DNA of 64,000 nucleotides from Streptomyces sp. NBC_00287 (GTDB taxonomy: Bacteria > Actinomycetota > Actinomycetes > Streptomycetales > Streptomycetaceae): positions 5,084,001 to 5,148,000 of the forward strand of contig NZ_CP108053.1 of NCBI RefSeq assembly GCF_036173105.1, read 5' to 3'. The notes beneath the pieces are model-generated. The model was not told the origin of the DNA and did no database searches. It saw only the letters and a list, made by a program, of their open reading frames with translations. Below, one piece after another: positions 1 to 6,678 of the stretch. How positions within the stretch are numbered: position 1 is the first letter of the stretch; each line of letters starts with the position of its first letter. The position numbers and the translations under genes were made by a program.

Positions 1-21
1 CAGCCCGGCAGCGTTCCGGCG

Positions 22-357
22 GTGGCGAGCATCGTCCTGCCGGACGGCCGCGTCGTCACCGGCTACGCCATCAACCCCGCCCAGCCCGAACCGGTCGCGG
101 TCAAGCCGGCCGTCTCGCGGACGGCCGTGAACGTCGCCCTCGGGGGCGTCGGATTCCTCGCGGTCTGCGGCGGGCTGATCCTGCTCACCTCGTTCATCGC
201 CGCGCTCACCGTGTTCATCTCCCAGCTCATCATCCTGGCCGCTGTGATCTTCGGTGGATGGATCACCGTGGAGCTCTTCAGTGCGAGCGGCCACCAGGGC
301 GGGACAACCGTCCACATCCGTAAGGCCACGTTCAAGCGCAACAAGTTCTACGGCTGA
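22..357 (+). CDS. Small two-helix membrane protein of the element (Spd-like)
   Basis: A 111-residue protein with a hydrophobic stretch at about residues 40-80 that can form two membrane helices, and a basic C-terminus. Small membrane proteins of this kind (SpdB-type spread proteins) accompany conjugation genes in Streptomyces plasmids and AICEs, where they are thought to help transfer through the mycelium. The reading frame is open to the window edge, so the GTG at 22 may not be the true start and the gene may be longer. Its 3' end overlaps the convergent HNH gene by 10 bases. The assignment to the Spd group rests on size, topology and context only. Confidence 0.5.
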   Translation: MASIVLPDGRVVTGYAINPAQPEPVAVKPAVSRTAVNVALGGVGFLAVCGGLILLTSFIAALTVFISQLIILAAVIFGGWITVELFSASGHQGGTTVHIRKATFKRNKFYG

Positions 358-1286
358 TGCGGCTGGGCCTGGCCGCGGTGCATGGTCCAGTGCTGCTCGA
401 TCCAGCGGCGCTGCTTGGTGCTGAGCGGTGATGCCAGCAGCGGCAGGCCATGCAACTCCTTGTAGGTCGGGTAGGCAGCCAACTCGTCACTGACGTCGAT
501 CTCGTGGTTTGACGGGTTGATAGTGATCAGCCCGAGGTCGAACAGGCGGTGCAGGTCGCGGCGCAGCAGCAACCCGCCGCATTCGTGGCTTCCGGTGGCT
601 CCGAAGCTTTCCAGGTGGGCAGCTTCCAAGACGGCCGCGGGTGCGGGCCCGGTCAGGGCGCAGTTGGCTCCGTAGGTGTCGAGCAGGCTCCTGCGGAAGG
701 CTGCTTGTCCGATCCTGGCCCGTGTCCGCTGCTCGCGGTGCCCGCCGGTGATGGCACGCTGCGTGCCCTCGATGATGCTGGCCGGCGCTCGCGTACCGAT
801 GCTTTCGAGCGCTTCGCAGAACGCCTCCCAGCGCAGCGGGCGCATACTCAGTTGCGATTTGGGCTTCTCGCACAGAGCCCGCAACTGATCACCAGAAAGC
901 TGACCGGCAAGGTCAACCCAACCCTGCGCGTGCGACGTGCGGTACTTGACGACCGACGCCAGCACCTTGCTGGGCTCATCGAACTCTGCCTGGCACTCCC
1001 AACACAGGTAGCGCGGGCGCTTCTTCTTGCGCAGTCCCAGACTGGCCTTTCCACACGTCGGGCAGCTGTAGCGGTACTTCTCGCCGGCTTCCGTATCAAT
1101 GCGCTCGATCACCGAGACGCCCATCAGGGCGTCGGTGTCCCACAGCGCGATGACGTCGCCGGGCTGCAAGGCGGCGTGGTTAGGGACCGTGTCATCCCAG
1201 CTGTAGTGACGCGACGGTACGTCGTCATATCCGTCGCCCCCGCGTGAGCGGTCTTCCCCCGTAGCCAGCAGCAGCCATGCGCGCAT
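348..1286 (-). CDS. HNH endonuclease with zinc-ribbon and PUA/EVE-like N-terminal region
   Basis: A 312-residue protein if translation starts at the ATG at 1286 (MRAWLLLATG...), which is preceded by purine-rich sequence; an upstream in-frame extension to 1397 would cross the promoter of the divergent gene. The N-terminal 80 residues carry a PGDVIALW...GVSVIERI pattern like small-ligand or modified-base reader folds (PUA/EVE/ASCH), followed by a CPTC...CWEC zinc ribbon. The C-terminal half matches HNH_2 nucleases: CALTGP, AAHLESFG and LHRLFDLGLI supply the Cys, first His and final His region. Similar nucleases act in modification-dependent restriction. It is divergent from a TGT-like gene, which suggests a link to modified DNA. 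The N-terminal fold is inferred. Confidence 0.65.
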   Translation of the reverse strand: MRAWLLLATGEDRSRGGDGYDDVPSRHYSWDDTVPNHAALQPGDVIALWDTDALMGVSVIERIDTEAGEKYRYSCPTCGKASLGLRKKKRPRYLCWECQAEFDEPSKVLASVVKYRTSHAQGWVDLAGQLSGDQLRALCEKPKSQLSMRPLRWEAFCEALESIGTRAPASIIEGTQRAITGGHREQRTRARIGQAAFRRSLLDTYGANCALTGPAPAAVLEAAHLESFGATGSHECGGLLLRRDLHRLFDLGLITINPSNHEIDVSDELAAYPTYKELHGLPLLASPLSTKQRRWIEQHWTMHRGQAQPHQP

Positions 1287-1388
1287 GCGCTCTTTCGTCC
1301 CTTCTCCGTGAACGAACCGGGCGGCCTCGATCTTTGGCCAGAGGAGGCCGCCCGTCTCCAGCACGCAACGAACCGGAGGTCTTCCACA

Positions 1389-2273
1389 ATGACCCACCCC
1401 ACTGACAATCGGCGAGCCTTATTCACAACCCCGGCTCGCCCACCGGCGGGAGCTCCCGCCGCGGGCAGGATGCGGTTCTACCTGACCACCCATAAACGGC
1501 ACTGGCTCCGCTGGACCGACGTGCCGCTGTTCTTGAAATCCGAGCACTGGGACCGTGCCGTCAAGTGGGACGTAGCCCAGGGCCCCTACGCGGTCGACTC
1601 CGGCGGGTTCATGGAGCTGAAGGACAAAGGCACCTGGATGCGCACGCCCCGCCAGTACATCGACTCCTTGCGCCGGATCTGGGAGCACGTGGGCCCGTAC
1701 GATTGGGCCGCCCCGCAGGACTGGATGTGCGAGAAGGCCATCATCGAGGGCGGCTGGTTCGGCGGACAGCACTTCGTCGGCACCCACCTCAGCGTCGCCG
1801 AGCACCAGCGCCGCACCGTTGAGAACTTCCTCGAACTGCGCTCCCTTGCCCCCGACCTGCGCATCGCACCGGTCGTCCAGGGCGACACCGTGCCGGCCTA
1901 CGAGCACTGCGTAGAGCTGTACGAGAAGGCGGGCGTAGACCTGCGGGCCGAACCGATCGTTGGGCTCGGCTCGGTGTGCCGGTTGCAGTCCACCCGCCAG
2001 GGCGCCGCGATCGTCACCGCGATGGCCACACACGGCTTCAAGCTGCACGGCTTCGGCTTCAAGATCCTCGGCCTGGAACGCGTCGGGCATCTGCTCGCGT
2101 CCGCGGACTCCGCGGCGTGGAGCTCCCACGCCCGCCGCCGCCCTCCGCTGCCCGGCCACCCGCACAAGAACTGCGCGAACTGCATCGACTACGCCCTGAA
2201 GTGGCGCGAGCGCGTCATCAGTGCCATCCCCACCCACCGCCAGACGCTGCTCACCGATCGGAGCGCGGCATGA
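1389..2273 (+). CDS. Queuine tRNA-ribosyltransferase-like protein (DpdA/TGT family)
   Basis: A 294-residue protein starting at ATG 1389; a start at 1470 (MRFYLTTHK) is possible. It has the hallmarks of the TGT TIM barrel: AVDSGGF around residues 68-74 (the DSGGF base-binding Asp), PVVQGD at 161-166 (like VVQGG of TGT), GLGSV at 192-196, and SADSAAWS at 238-245, the segment expected to carry the nucleophilic Asp. HPHKNCANC at 257-265 looks like a reduced zinc site. TGT enzymes exchange guanine for a 7-deazaguanine; the DpdA branch does this in DNA of phages and mobile elements. Stand-alone small members occur in phages and actinomycete elements. The stop overlaps the Prim-Pol start (ATGA), so it is co-expressed with replication genes. 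DNA as the substrate is inferred. Confidence 0.7.
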   Translation: MTHPTDNRRALFTTPARPPAGAPAAGRMRFYLTTHKRHWLRWTDVPLFLKSEHWDRAVKWDVAQGPYAVDSGGFMELKDKGTWMRTPRQYIDSLRRIWEHVGPYDWAAPQDWMCEKAIIEGGWFGGQHFVGTHLSVAEHQRRTVENFLELRSLAPDLRIAPVVQGDTVPAYEHCVELYEKAGVDLRAEPIVGLGSVCRLQSTRQGAAIVTAMATHGFKLHGFGFKILGLERVGHLLASADSAAWSSHARRRPPLPGHPHKNCANCIDYALKWRERVISAIPTHRQTLLTDRSAA

Positions 2274-3115
2274 GCGAAACGCCCTACCCCCTGCACACCG
2301 CGCTGAGCCTCGCAGCGTCTGGCGTCCCGGTGCTGCCCGTGCGCCGGGGCAAGGTGCCGTTCGGTAACTGCCCCGCGTGCGTGGACAACGCGTGCGGCGG
2401 CCGGCCGAACATGAAGACCCCGGGCCCGTGCCGCTGCCCCGGCGTCTGCCACGCCTGGGCCGCCGCGACCACCGAGCCGGCCGTCATCGTCTCGCCCGCG
2501 TGGGCGGCGGCGTGGCGACGGGCGGTGTGCGTCGGCTACCACCCCGGCGGCGCCGGTCTGACCGTGGTCGACCTGGACAACGCGGACGCCGTCGCGTGGG
2601 CCCGCACTGCCCTGCCGGCCACACGGATCGTTCCGACGACACGCGGTGAGCACTGGATCTACCGGGGCGCCATGACCTCCCGCAACAAGGTGCGTCCCGG
2701 TGTCGACATCAAGTCGACCATGGCCTACGCCCGCTACCTCGGACCCGGCACCGGCACCACGGCCGACCTGCCGGACACCGTGCGCGCCCTGGCCGCCAAG
2801 ACGCGCTCCCCGGCCCGGCCGGTACTGCACGCCGGCGTGCCCGCCGGGTCCGGCGGCGGGCAGTGCCCGCACCGCACGCCCGTCTTCCTGGAACGCGGCA
2901 TCGCCATGGCCGAGCAGCGCATCACCGCCGCCCGCAGCGCGATCCACGCCACCGTATACGGGACGTTCCTCGCGGTGCTGTCCAGGCACGGCCGGTGCGG
3001 CTGCCTCACCGACACCCACGTTGCCCGCCTGTTTACGGCCGCGCAGAGCAAGGGCGAGACGGCAAGGCACTGCACGGACGCGTGGACCAACGCCCGCACC
3101 ACGTTGGGACTGTGA
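2270..3115 (+). CDS. Bifunctional DNA primase/polymerase (Prim-Pol) replication protein
   Basis: A 281-residue protein starting at ATG 2270, overlapping the preceding stop by 4 bases. It shows the AEP-type primase/polymerase pattern: an N-terminal AL.LA..GVPVLPV, an insert with clustered Cys (about residues 34-60, a likely zinc-binding loop), the metal-binding acidic motif VVDLDN near 99-104, and TTRGEHWIY near 123-131. Prim-Pol proteins initiate replication of one class of AICE and of some plasmids. The downstream ATPase gene begins only 2 bases after the stop, consistent with a functional primase-helicase pair. It is short for a Prim-Pol; the helicase part is the separate next gene. Confidence 0.8.
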   Translation: MSETPYPLHTALSLAASGVPVLPVRRGKVPFGNCPACVDNACGGRPNMKTPGPCRCPGVCHAWAAATTEPAVIVSPAWAAAWRRAVCVGYHPGGAGLTVVDLDNADAVAWARTALPATRIVPTTRGEHWIYRGAMTSRNKVRPGVDIKSTMAYARYLGPGTGTTADLPDTVRALAAKTRSPARPVLHAGVPAGSGGGQCPHRTPVFLERGIAMAEQRITAARSAIHATVYGTFLAVLSRHGRCGCLTDTHVARLFTAAQSKGETARHCTDAWTNARTTLGL

Positions 3116-5088: not shown

Positions 5089-5328
5089 ATGGCCACCGAA
5101 GAGCCGACCGACCCGCGCGCCCTCCTACGCGGCGGACTCCCGGATCGCTACCTCACCCCCGAAGACCTGGTCACCATGTTCAGCCTCCCCAGCGTCGAGA
5201 CCGTCTACCAGTGGCGACGCAAGCGCATCGGCCCGGCCGGTTTCCGCGTCGGCCGCTACCTCCGCTTCAACCCCGCCGCCGTACAGGCGTGGGAGGCCGA
5301 ACGCACCGCCCTCGACGACGCCGCCTGA
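5089..5328 (+). CDS. Excisionase-like helix-turn-helix protein
   Basis: A 79-residue basic protein with the MerR/AlpA-like winged-helix pattern: RYLTPEDLVTMF (first helices), VETVYQWRRKR (recognition helix) and GRYLRFNPAAVQAWE (wing and last helix). Proteins of this type control excision directionality of AICE integrases and are usually encoded immediately upstream of int, as here (87 bases). The start at ATG 5089 follows CCGAGGAG. It probably shares a transcript with the integrase, downstream of the iteron-like repeats. Confidence 0.85.
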   Translation: MATEEPTDPRALLRGGLPDRYLTPEDLVTMFSLPSVETVYQWRRKRIGPAGFRVGRYLRFNPAAVQAWEAERTALDDAA

Positions 5329-5415: not shown

Positions 5416-6678
5416 ATGGCAGGTCACATCCAAGACCGCTGGTTCAAGACCGAGACCAACTCCGCCGGCAAGACCGTCCGCGTCAAGAGCGATCGGCACG
5501 GCAAGGGCATGCGCTACCGGGCCCGCTACATCGGCCCCGACGGAACCGAGAAGTCCAAGAGCTTCCCCGACGGCAAGAAGCGCCTCGCCGAGAAGTGGCT
5601 CAGCGCTATCGAAACGGACATGACGCGCGGTCAGTACACCGACCCCAAGTCAATGCAGATCACGTTCCGGCAGTATGCCGAGAAGTGGTTGGACACCAAG
5701 ACACCCAGCCCGATGACCCGGAAGGAACTCGGCCGGCGCCTGAGGTTGCACGTCTACCCGGTTCTCGGCTCCCGTCCGATCGGGACCTTCCGACCGGAGC
5801 ACATCCGAGAGTTCGTTGCGGCCCTGGAAGCGAAACCCGGCATCGGTCCGTCCTACGCCCGGAACATCTTCGCGGACGTTCAGTCGGTCCTGTCTGCCGC
5901 TGTCGACGACACGCTGTTGTCGCGCAACCCGTGCGGTGCGCGGACCGTTCGGCGTCCCAAGCCTGACCCACATCCCGTGGTCCCGTGGGTGCCCGACCAG
6001 GTGTTCGCCGTTCGCGCGGCTCTTCTGGATCGGTACCGAGCGATGGTCAACGTCGGGGCCGGATGTGGCCTGCGCCAGGGCGAGGTGTTCGGGCTCGCCG
6101 AGGACGCCATCGACACCGACGGACGCACGCTCCACGTGGTCCGGCAGATCAAGCACGTGGAAGGGCACCCGGTGTTCGCTCTCCCCAAGGGCGGCAAGAA
6201 ACGGGACGTTCCGCTGCCCGGCTCCGTGGCGGAAGCCCTCCGGGTGCATATGGACGCCTTCAAGCCCGTGGAGATCACGTTGCCGTGGGACGTGCCGGAG
6301 GGGCCCAAGGTGTCCGCCCGGCTGATATTCACGGCTGAGCAAGGGGGCATGGTGTGGCGCAGCAACTTCAACGGCAAGGAGTGGAAACCTGCTCTGGCGG
6401 TCGCTGGCCTCATCCCGGAGGCGGACGACGACGGCAAGTACGAGTCGGCGCGCGAGCACGGCATGCACGCCCTCCGGCACTTCTACGCCTCCGCGCTCTT
6501 GGACGCGGGCGAGAACATCAAGGCCGTCAGCGAGTACATGGGACATGCTGACCCGGGGCTGACGCTGCGGGTGTACGCCCACCTGATGCCCGACAGTCGC
6601 CAGAGGGCCCGCCACGCCATCGACACGGTGTTTCAGGGCGTCTCCCAGGAAGATCACGGCCCACAGACGGCCCAGTGA
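5416..6678 (+). CDS. int: Site-specific tyrosine integrase
   Basis: A 420-residue tyrosine recombinase of normal length. The N-terminal arm-binding region is rich in basic residues, the SAM-like core-binding domain spans about 80-170, and the catalytic domain 185-400 carries Arg220 (CGLRQGEV), a Lys in the PKGGKKR beta-hairpin (258-263), His351-x-x-Arg354 (HALRH), His377 (GHADPG) and the nucleophile Tyr387 (RVYAHL). All catalytic residues are present, so the enzyme is probably active. It inserts and, with the excisionase, removes the element. Its 3' end points to the chromosomal boundary. A hairpin terminator follows 6 bases after the stop. Confidence 0.95.
   Translation: MAGHIQDRWFKTETNSAGKTVRVKSDRHGKGMRYRARYIGPDGTEKSKSFPDGKKRLAEKWLSAIETDMTRGQYTDPKSMQITFRQYAEKWLDTKTPSPMTRKELGRRLRLHVYPVLGSRPIGTFRPEHIREFVAALEAKPGIGPSYARNIFADVQSVLSAAVDDTLLSRNPCGARTVRRPKPDPHPVVPWVPDQVFAVRAALLDRYRAMVNVGAGCGLRQGEVFGLAEDAIDTDGRTLHVVRQIKHVEGHPVFALPKGGKKRDVPLPGSVAEALRVHMDAFKPVEITLPWDVPEGPKVSARLIFTAEQGGMVWRSNFNGKEWKPALAVAGLIPEADDDGKYESAREHGMHALRHFYASALLDAGENIKAVSEYMGHADPGLTLRVYAHLMPDSRQRARHAIDTVFQGVSQEDHGPQTAQ

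Follow-up and report, generated by a model that had tools for sequence, protein, structure and literature searches.

A dpdA gene in an exchangeable DNA-modification slot of a Streptomyces integrative element, beside an optional EVE-HNH-type nuclease gene

The chromosomal dpd island (Thiaville 2016, as covered in the available parts of PMC11888242 and PMC12707154) has already been reported in Streptomyces according to the former of these two papers. The EVE-HNH enzyme VcaM4I senses 5-methylcytosine and 5-hydroxymethylcytosine (available part of PMC7897488), and restriction-modification (R-M) systems are named among the cargo of actinomycete integrative and conjugative elements (AICEs) in the accessible text of PMC9513070. 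Here, the left end of a 64,000-nucleotide stretch of the genome of Streptomyces sp. NBC_00287 (the window; positions 5,084,001-5,148,000 of 9.64 Mb, one contig) was compared with these systems. At this edge lies part of an integrative element carrying a dpdA gene and, divergent from it, a nuclease gene. The dpdA gene occupies a DNA-marking slot, newly described here, which in AICE-like elements is bounded by a conserved leader and by the Prim-Pol gene. It probably encodes a DNA-modifying enzyme held in an exchangeable anti-restriction position, with the divergent nuclease as an optional module against foreign modifications.

The dpdA gene and the slot that it occupies

The 294-residue dpdA product matches the DpdA family in Pfam (PF23859, E 4e-69, 233 bits, cut-off 27) and in PHROG (phrog_1279, E 3.9e-69). 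Its predicted structure (mean predicted local distance difference test score, pLDDT, 92.7, from 28 sequences) has as best Foldseek match 7ui4, "DNA preQ0 insertase DpdA" (E 5.7e-7, template modelling (TM) score 0.55 by query), and the 50 matches listed by VIA-align (Z 17.7-19.0) are all tRNA-guanine transglycosylases (TGTs) or 7ui4 (Z 18.5). A sequence-only reading of this DNA had proposed the TGT/DpdA identity from the motifs DSGGF, VVQGD, GLGSV and SADSAAWS; all four are present in the translation, and the proposal was borne out by profile and by structure prediction. Both open reading frames (ORFs) of the divergent pair are real and intact, and the start at ATG 1389, which gives the 294 residues, is backed by a leader common to other elements. 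An inner ATG at 1470 (267 aa) marks the beginning of the conserved DpdA domain.

Ten columns, including D43, H193 and D213 (numbered from ATG 1470), are invariant in an alignment of 16 sequences that takes in the DpdA of phage 9g and that of the host's own dpd island. Aspartates of the D43 and D213 type are catalytic in TGT enzymes. The residue H193 aligns with H196 of the phage 9g enzyme. This histidine is absent from DpdA2 according to the available part of PMC6884629; since its equivalent is kept here, DpdA2 was ruled out and the protein is a DpdA. The gene is under purifying selection, with ratios of nonsynonymous to synonymous substitution rates (dN/dS) of 0.12 and 0.17 in comparisons with its two sister copies in the genome and of 0.15-0.36 in those with four other elements. 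By its predicted activity the product is a DpdA-family DNA transglycosylase.

As the sequence-only reading had stated, dpdA overlaps the Prim-Pol gene: its stop codon and the Prim-Pol ATG (2270) share 4 bp, and dpdA stands at the head of the replication operon. Prim-Pol genes were found in 121 of the 295 genus members searched, and 80 of the 88 best places (identity approximately 72-90%) were surveyed for what precedes Prim-Pol. Left out of this survey were the window, four loci with dpdA and no nuclease (G009, G055, G069, G096), a nuclease locus whose slot holds no gene (G030) and two near-duplicates; the near-duplicate L140 stayed in, and the omission of known dpdA loci lowers the share of dpdA. 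The slot was recognisably filled in 32 of the 80 loci, by DNA methyltransferases in 29 and by DpdA in 3, so that every recognised slot gene (32/32) is a DNA-modification enzyme. The methyltransferases comprise 28 full matches and a 401-aa ORF matching PF00145 (L151); the L130 slot, with only a methyltransferase fragment (49 bits), is outside the 32. In the remaining leader-bearing loci the slot is empty. At L133, a filled locus, the stretch examined excludes approximately 0.7 kb between leader and methyltransferase. The larger slot methyltransferases match PF00145 (L174 and L151). The small ones match PHROG 363, "DNA methyltransferase" (E 1e-29 to 1e-36 in the five scanned), with no match to the Pfam C5 methylase profile; in them a PC motif is invariant and an ENV motif nearly so, which we take to be C5-type DNA methyltransferase signatures. 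Because of the PHROG match and these motifs, the small enzymes are probably of the cytosine-5 type. Mutual exclusion of dpdA and methyltransferase was considered and dropped: none of the 80 loci holds both, which is at chance level with only three dpdA loci, and tandems exist.

The slot is delimited by the leader. With up to two mismatches allowed, sense-strand copies of the leader word ATGACCCAACCCACC precede Prim-Pol in 65 of the 80 loci; the antisense strand of these stretches has none. The distance from leader to Prim-Pol is 530-1,336 bp in all 27 loci with a matched modification gene and 0-42 bp in 36 of the 38 loci lacking a full one (the exceptions are L130, 72 bp, and L151, 1,202 bp). 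The leader is usually the start of the inserted gene, and methyltransferase or Prim-Pol ORFs of other elements start with it; the copy in the window is a diverged form. Ten of 14 dpdA elements carry it by eye, the others being L006, L069, L070 and L076; in L070 the dpdA gene lacks it because a leader-bearing methyltransferase gene stands before dpdA. Over 67 sites, conservation at third positions of codons 6-9, which are outside the search word, is 0.87, versus 0.75 and 0.78 at first and second positions, and conservation falls off after about base 30. At 46 of these sites the 36 bp before the leader contain an inverted repeat whose arms reach at least 5 bp (mean after shuffling, 7.45). Together, these three features argue for conservation of the leader region at the DNA level. 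The leader is probably an operator or RNA element plus a start site behind which genes exchange, and the inverted repeat is possibly an operator or RNA switch. One form of it, CTGGAG-AC-CTCCAG, as in L120, overlaps the likely ribosome-binding site of the first gene of the operon.

Codon 11, just behind the leader, is by eye the rare leucine codon TTA in seven of these ten dpdA elements with a leader: the window (1389-1424), L005, L061, L075, L088, L106 and L116. TTA is read by the bldA tRNA, which acts as a switch in Streptomyces development. The codon could make translation of dpdA dependent on bldA.

The genome has three dpdA copies, each in its own element of the same kind; copies 2 and 3 are 96% and 86% identical to that of the window over the conserved domain. 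The nuclease gene occurs once. It is missing beside copies 2 and 3, and at copy 2 (L005) its place is taken by a 55-aa cysteine-rich ORF with no Pfam match. Identity profiles in 300-bp blocks were computed against L005 and against L088 from Streptomyces violaceoruber NRRL S-981, which has the same layout as the window. Versus L088, the nuclease gene is 92-95%, dpdA 71-82% and the replication genes 82-91% identical, the flanks of dpdA being 81-95% identical overall; versus L005, dpdA is 91-97% identical, the flanks 67-89%, and the nuclease gene is missing. These opposite patterns indicate that dpdA and the nuclease gene move separately.

A source of preQ0 is predicted in this host from its gene set queC-queE-queD-folE2. 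A near-complete dpd island lies at approximately 3.470-3.494 Mb (3469891-3494381; L081, L082), 1.6 Mb from the window, with genes for DpdA, two DpdB, DpdC, DpdE, F, G, H, J and K; DpdD was not seen at this island, and no match was obtained for the ORF at the place of DpdI. Beside it are QueC (TIGR00364), QueE (TIGR04508) and QueD (TIGR03367), all above cut-off, and a FolE2 match of 208 bits, just below the curated cut-off of 215. A tRNA-TGT (PF01702) was found in none of 38 genus members searched (27 dpdA carriers and 11 others), while all 14 controls were positive, which makes a use of preQ0 for tRNA unlikely in these genomes. Taken with the DNA methyltransferases in the same slot, this argues for DNA rather than tRNA as the DpdA substrate.

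Relatives of dpdA outside these elements were collected from phages and plasmids. By tblastn, 397 phage records (phages of Mycobacterium, Streptomyces, Sinorhizobium and Microcystis) matched dpdA, 391 of them mycobacteriophage records, with identities up to approximately 46% among the matches listed; four records (Salmonella and Vibrio phages) matched the nuclease. In IMG/VR the best 80 of 101 dpdA loci were taken with flanks of up to 4 kb. A gene for Vut_1, a queuosine-precursor transporter, stands within 0.5 kb of dpdA in 18 of these 80, adjoins dpdA on Nocardia and Embleya plasmids and overlaps it in L065 and L073; QueC is near dpdA in 4/80. By the queries used, a cytosine DNA methyltransferase gene is near dpdA in 9/80 (L254, L258, L271, L306 and L308 are examples), and such a gene was seen near phage-like or plasmid-like dpdA in L065, L067 and L073 too. 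ATP-pyrophosphatase-like proteins adjoin dpdA in L064, L067 and L074, some with an SGGKDS-type motif by eye.

The divergent nuclease and its partners

The nuclease and dpdA genes are head to head, their starts (ATG 1286 and ATG 1389) being 102 bp apart. The nuclease ORF is open from GTG 1397, but in the alignment the first residue of its relatives corresponds to ATG 1286; a gene of 348-1286 (312 aa) is more likely than one starting at 1397. An HNH_2 domain (PF13391, 31.5 bits, cut-off 21) was identified at the C-terminus, with H224, H234 and H246 invariant in 14/14 aligned sequences, and a profile match to VcaM4I (6yex, E 2.4e-10) covers this part. VcaM4I is also the best solved relative of the N-terminal domain in fold comparison (Z 9.2, 126 residues aligned, root-mean-square deviation 3.3), followed by DrmA (Z 8.4) and by archaeal, ASCH, THYN1 (7.6) and YTH (7.2) matches at Z 6.3-7.8, a range in which, by the tool's own caution on values below 8, the likeness can mean merely a common arrangement. 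The model scores pLDDT 67-89 per ten-residue block at residues 21-170 and 41 at 11-20. Assignment of this domain to the PUA superfamily as EVE-like is supported by the model. The earlier description of a PUA/EVE-like N-terminus joined to HNH_2 thus stood; that of a zinc ribbon stood in part, since C75, C78, C95 and C98 are invariant in all 14 sequences but Zn_ribbon_SprT scores only 16.4 bits, under its cut-off of 28.1. The four-cysteine insert is zinc-ribbon-like and would bind zinc.

The nuclease family was found in 23 of 392 genomes at E 1e-25. By the queries used, 11 of the 14 full-length nuclease places of at least 48% identity are in Prim-Pol elements and three (L222, L223, L054) are not. 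These 11 with L087, L088 and L089 make up a set of 14 nuclease elements; two nuclease fragments at contig ends (G193), one of them near an FtsK-like gene (L233), were excluded from the partner count. The slot partner is a methyltransferase in 9 (L087, L089, L055, L224-L228 and L235) and dpdA in 3 (the window, L088 and L234/L163); L221 and L053 have none, the latter with a methylase-like match elsewhere in the locus. In the 12 elements having both genes, nuclease and modification gene are always head to head.

The slot is filled in 12 of the 14 nuclease elements versus 34 of 81 nuclease-free ones, namely 77 survey loci without the duplicate (30 filled) and the four known dpdA loci. One-sided Fisher tests gave p 0.0025 for this comparison, 0.0045 without the window (11/13) and 0.025 for the loci of the 392-genome search alone, also without the window (8/10), and, against the survey loci alone (30/77), 0.0013, 0.0025 and 0.016 in the same order, all to be read with the two samples drawn differently (Prim-Pols of the nuclease elements from the 392-genome search are included from 58% identity to that of the window upward) and with the elements related rather than independent. 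The nuclease is thus associated with a filled slot, not with dpdA in particular. The nuclease tree gives no single clade for the two dpdA-linked rows: L234 (dpdA) shares a well-supported branch with L089 (methyltransferase) and with two rows from outside elements. The nucleases of L234/L163 and L089 are 81% identical.

The sequence-only reading had seen dpdA and the nuclease as a divergent pair and asked whether the two co-occur in other AICEs and phages. The pair does recur, in three loci (the window, L088 and L163/L234), and the lack of co-occurrence that would have refuted that reading was not observed. The pair is nevertheless optional: a nuclease gene lies within 1.5 kb of dpdA in 2 of the 30 dpdA loci examined and near none of the 80 IMG/VR dpdA genes, and a methyltransferase is the commoner partner, in 9 of the 14 elements. 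A scan of IMG/VR for the nuclease confirmed no relative, and on plasmids none of 10 nuclease records was among the best 40 of 48 dpdA matches. Copies 2 and 3 of this genome, together with the 2/30 and 0/80 counts, led to the rejection of a fixed dpdA-nuclease pair; as a unit, the pair is supported in part.

In L163 (3034-3660, PF01844) and L175 (2563-3120) the gene after the EVE-HNH nuclease encodes another, short HNH protein. Outside elements, nuclease relatives (L056, L090) are near genes for MORC/HSP90-like ATPases by eye, L090 also near a methylase-like gene, which suggests defence islands.

The features of the element are collected in Table 1. FtsK-like and DUF2637 genes are located just beyond the window edge, and the gene set expected of an AICE, which the earlier reading had named as the setting, was confirmed by Pfam profiles: PF01580 (FtsK-like), PF09250 (Prim-Pol), PF12728 (HTH_17) and PF00589 (tyrosine integrase). 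Small membrane-protein-like ORFs are found upstream of the slot in relatives too. The 494-aa ORF behind Prim-Pol is perhaps its helicase or ATPase partner. No common word of at least 13 bp that could be an attachment repeat was found in the stretches compared, and no tRNA genes were found in the window or in 20-kb stretches around the three dpdA elements of the genome.

Table 1. Coordinates of the element features at the left end of the window (L004 positions in brackets or after an equals sign)
Feature	Position	Strand	Basis
Small membrane-protein ORF, 3' part	1..357	+	ORF, start before window; = L004 11893-12357
Nuclease, PUA/EVE-like domain, CxxC...CxxC insert and HNH_2, 312 aa	348..1286	-	HNH_2 profile, fold comparison, alignment
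Intergenic region, 102 bp, between divergent starts of nuclease and dpdA	1287..1388	.	Start assignments
Conserved leader of the operon (start codon, first nine codons; MTHPTDNRR), continuing in frame into dpdA	1389..1416	+	Common to other elements
dpdA, DpdA family/TGT fold, 294 aa, conserved domain from ATG 1470	1389..2273	+	PF23859, Foldseek, alignment
Prim-Pol replication gene	2270..3115	+	PF09250, E 1.3e-9, above cut-off
Replication-operon ORF after Prim-Pol, 494 aa	3112..4596	+	ORF, synteny in relatives; no Pfam match
HTH_17 small protein, excisionase-like	5089..5328	+	PF12728 (L004 17089-17325)
Tyrosine integrase of the element	5416..6678	+	PF00589, E 1.9e-14; PF22022; PF14659

Proposed role and alternatives

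With its slot between the leader and Prim-Pol, at the head of the operon, the marking enzyme would be made together with the replication proteins of the element. The base inserted would derive from preQ0 supplied by the chromosomal queC-queE-queD-folE2 genes and would replace guanine in element DNA, perhaps also in other DNA; the resulting 7-deazaguanine may hide the element from restriction enzymes of the current or the next host. Marks made by cytosine-5-type methyltransferases would do the same job in sister elements. Since DNA methyltransferases fill the same slot, what the slot enzymes have in common is probably that they mark new element DNA against restriction, and the predicted self-marking by the element is well supported by slot exchange and by the host pathway genes. 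The nuclease appears to be a separate and optional EVE-HNH-type module with a zinc-ribbon-like insert, which tends to accompany an occupied slot. As it is found with either partner, its target is probably another mark, or else either mark protects; most likely it would cut DNA with other, foreign base modifications, as in phages or rival elements. More tentatively, self-marking might be independent of chemistry, the leader and slot taking any DNA-marking enzyme and one nuclease family working with whichever mark. If true, an element could change its DNA chemistry by one cassette swap and keep its nuclease.

Several observations weigh against this proposal. No recognisable leader was found in 15 of the 80 survey loci, and in 11 of these the slot could not be delimited; one of the 11, L158, has a 115-aa ORF of no assigned class whose end is 51 bp from Prim-Pol. 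In L070 and L208, dpdA and a methyltransferase gene are in tandem. Of 23 genomes with an AICE-type dpdA, 5 have a QueC and 18 show none, and Vut_1 occurs in 7/150 genus members and had no match in this genome. Carriage of dpdA tied to host QueC was tried as a rule and found unsupported: among 150 genus members, QueC of at least 80 bits was present in 19, DpdA above its cut-off in 14 and both in 3 (at E 1e-3 the QueC search matched 138/150, of which the weak matches, mostly short and in ORFs of about 520-1,090 aa, were dropped as other proteins of that fold). According to the accessible part of PMC6884629, no 7-deazaguanine was seen in the DpdA-only phage Orion, whose host has no preQ0 genes. 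The position of a modified-base sensor beside a methyltransferase gene is puzzling unless the self mark is not the target. Finally, residues 177-312 of the nuclease have pLDDT below 50 (model from six sequences), and its whole-chain Foldseek match to VcaM4I has a TM score of 0.25; the arrangement of the two halves therefore rests on sequence profiles.

The nuclease and the slot gene could alternatively form a true R-M pair, in which the nuclease cuts unmarked DNA, either 7-deazaguanine or 5-methylcytosine blocks it, and the partner is swappable. The constant head-to-head order in all 12 elements with both genes, the fuller slots of nuclease elements (with the sampling and relatedness of these elements as stated) and the switching of partners on the nuclease tree agree with such a pair. 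The N-terminal domain, however, resembles readers of modified bases, L221 and L053 have the nuclease with no slot partner, and by the queries used none of eight nuclease places below 40% identity shows one. We regard an R-M pair as possible, with considerable doubt.

A second alternative is that dpdA has in effect no activity in almost all carriers, where no preQ0 is made, and travels as passing cargo. The low count of QueC among carriers and the Orion precedent, both given above, are what this would predict. The dN/dS values, 0.12-0.36 over all dpdA pairs tested, the recurrence of dpdA in the slot and the complete preQ0 gene set of this host speak against it, and silence is held to be unlikely.

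The sequence-only reading had also suggested that the nuclease reads the 7-deazaguanine mark, and it might then police or degrade dpdA-marked DNA. A reader domain of the PUA superfamily and the adjacency to dpdA in three loci would fit, but such an enzyme would attack its own element, its 81%-identical relative stands beside a methyltransferase gene with no dpdA, and viral dpdA genes lack it as a neighbour (0/80); this is very unlikely. Modification of tRNA by the window DpdA, for which the TGT fold might be cited, is still more improbable given the PF23859 and 7ui4 matches in place of PF01702, the 38/38 genus members without tRNA-TGT and the slot shared with DNA methyltransferases.

The preferred reading, a DNA-marking slot with an optional nuclease, has consequences beyond this locus. 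A dpdA gene that is tied to the replication operon and can trade places with methyltransferase genes argues that conjugative elements mark their new DNA by several chemistries to pass restriction. In a host with three dpdA elements and a dpd island with preQ0 genes, it becomes testable whether element DNA is modified, whether host and element share the precursor, and whether two 7-deazaguanine systems in one cell hinder or assist each other. The nuclease, an EVE-HNH protein with a zinc-ribbon-like insert and a recurrent neighbour of the slot, is a candidate reader of modified DNA with an assayable target.

Comparison with described systems

The element shares with Streptomyces AICEs, as described in the available parts of PMC3218068 and PMC9513070, the FtsK-like transfer protein, Prim-Pol, the helix-turn-helix protein and the tyrosine integrase. 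The accessible texts of both mention no modification slot; the words queuine and HNH occur in neither, nor does 7-deaza in PMC9513070. The open-licence library searched yielded no paper describing DpdA in an AICE.

The nuclease resembles VcaM4I in joining a PUA-superfamily N-terminal domain to HNH at nearly the same length (312 versus 309 residues); VcaM4I has a hydrophobic pocket for the flipped base (P24, W82, Y130). It differs in its invariant four-cysteine insert ("zinc" occurs 0 times in the main text of PMC7897488), in low sequence identity and in having, in most element loci, a divergent DNA-modification partner.

Compared with the chromosomal dpd island, the same chemistry is expected, but the island DpdA is a distant relative, longer (414 aa, NF041059) and 22% identical to that of the window, and the element has the short DpdA only, with no DpdB beside it. 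Phage DpdA enzymes (9g, Rosebush, Orion) belong to the same family and have the conserved histidine, the likeness to Rosebush and Orion being by description and that to 9g by sequence. A DpdA-only group of phages, the third group in the available part of PMC6884629, likewise carries dpdA with no preQ0 genes of its own. In contrast to these phage genes, dpdA of the window is on a conjugative element, as first gene of its replication operon; it is swapped against DNA methyltransferases, and its host has its own preQ0 genes. DpdA is thus known from phages and chromosomal islands, and what is new is the leader-anchored, exchangeable slot on a conjugative element.

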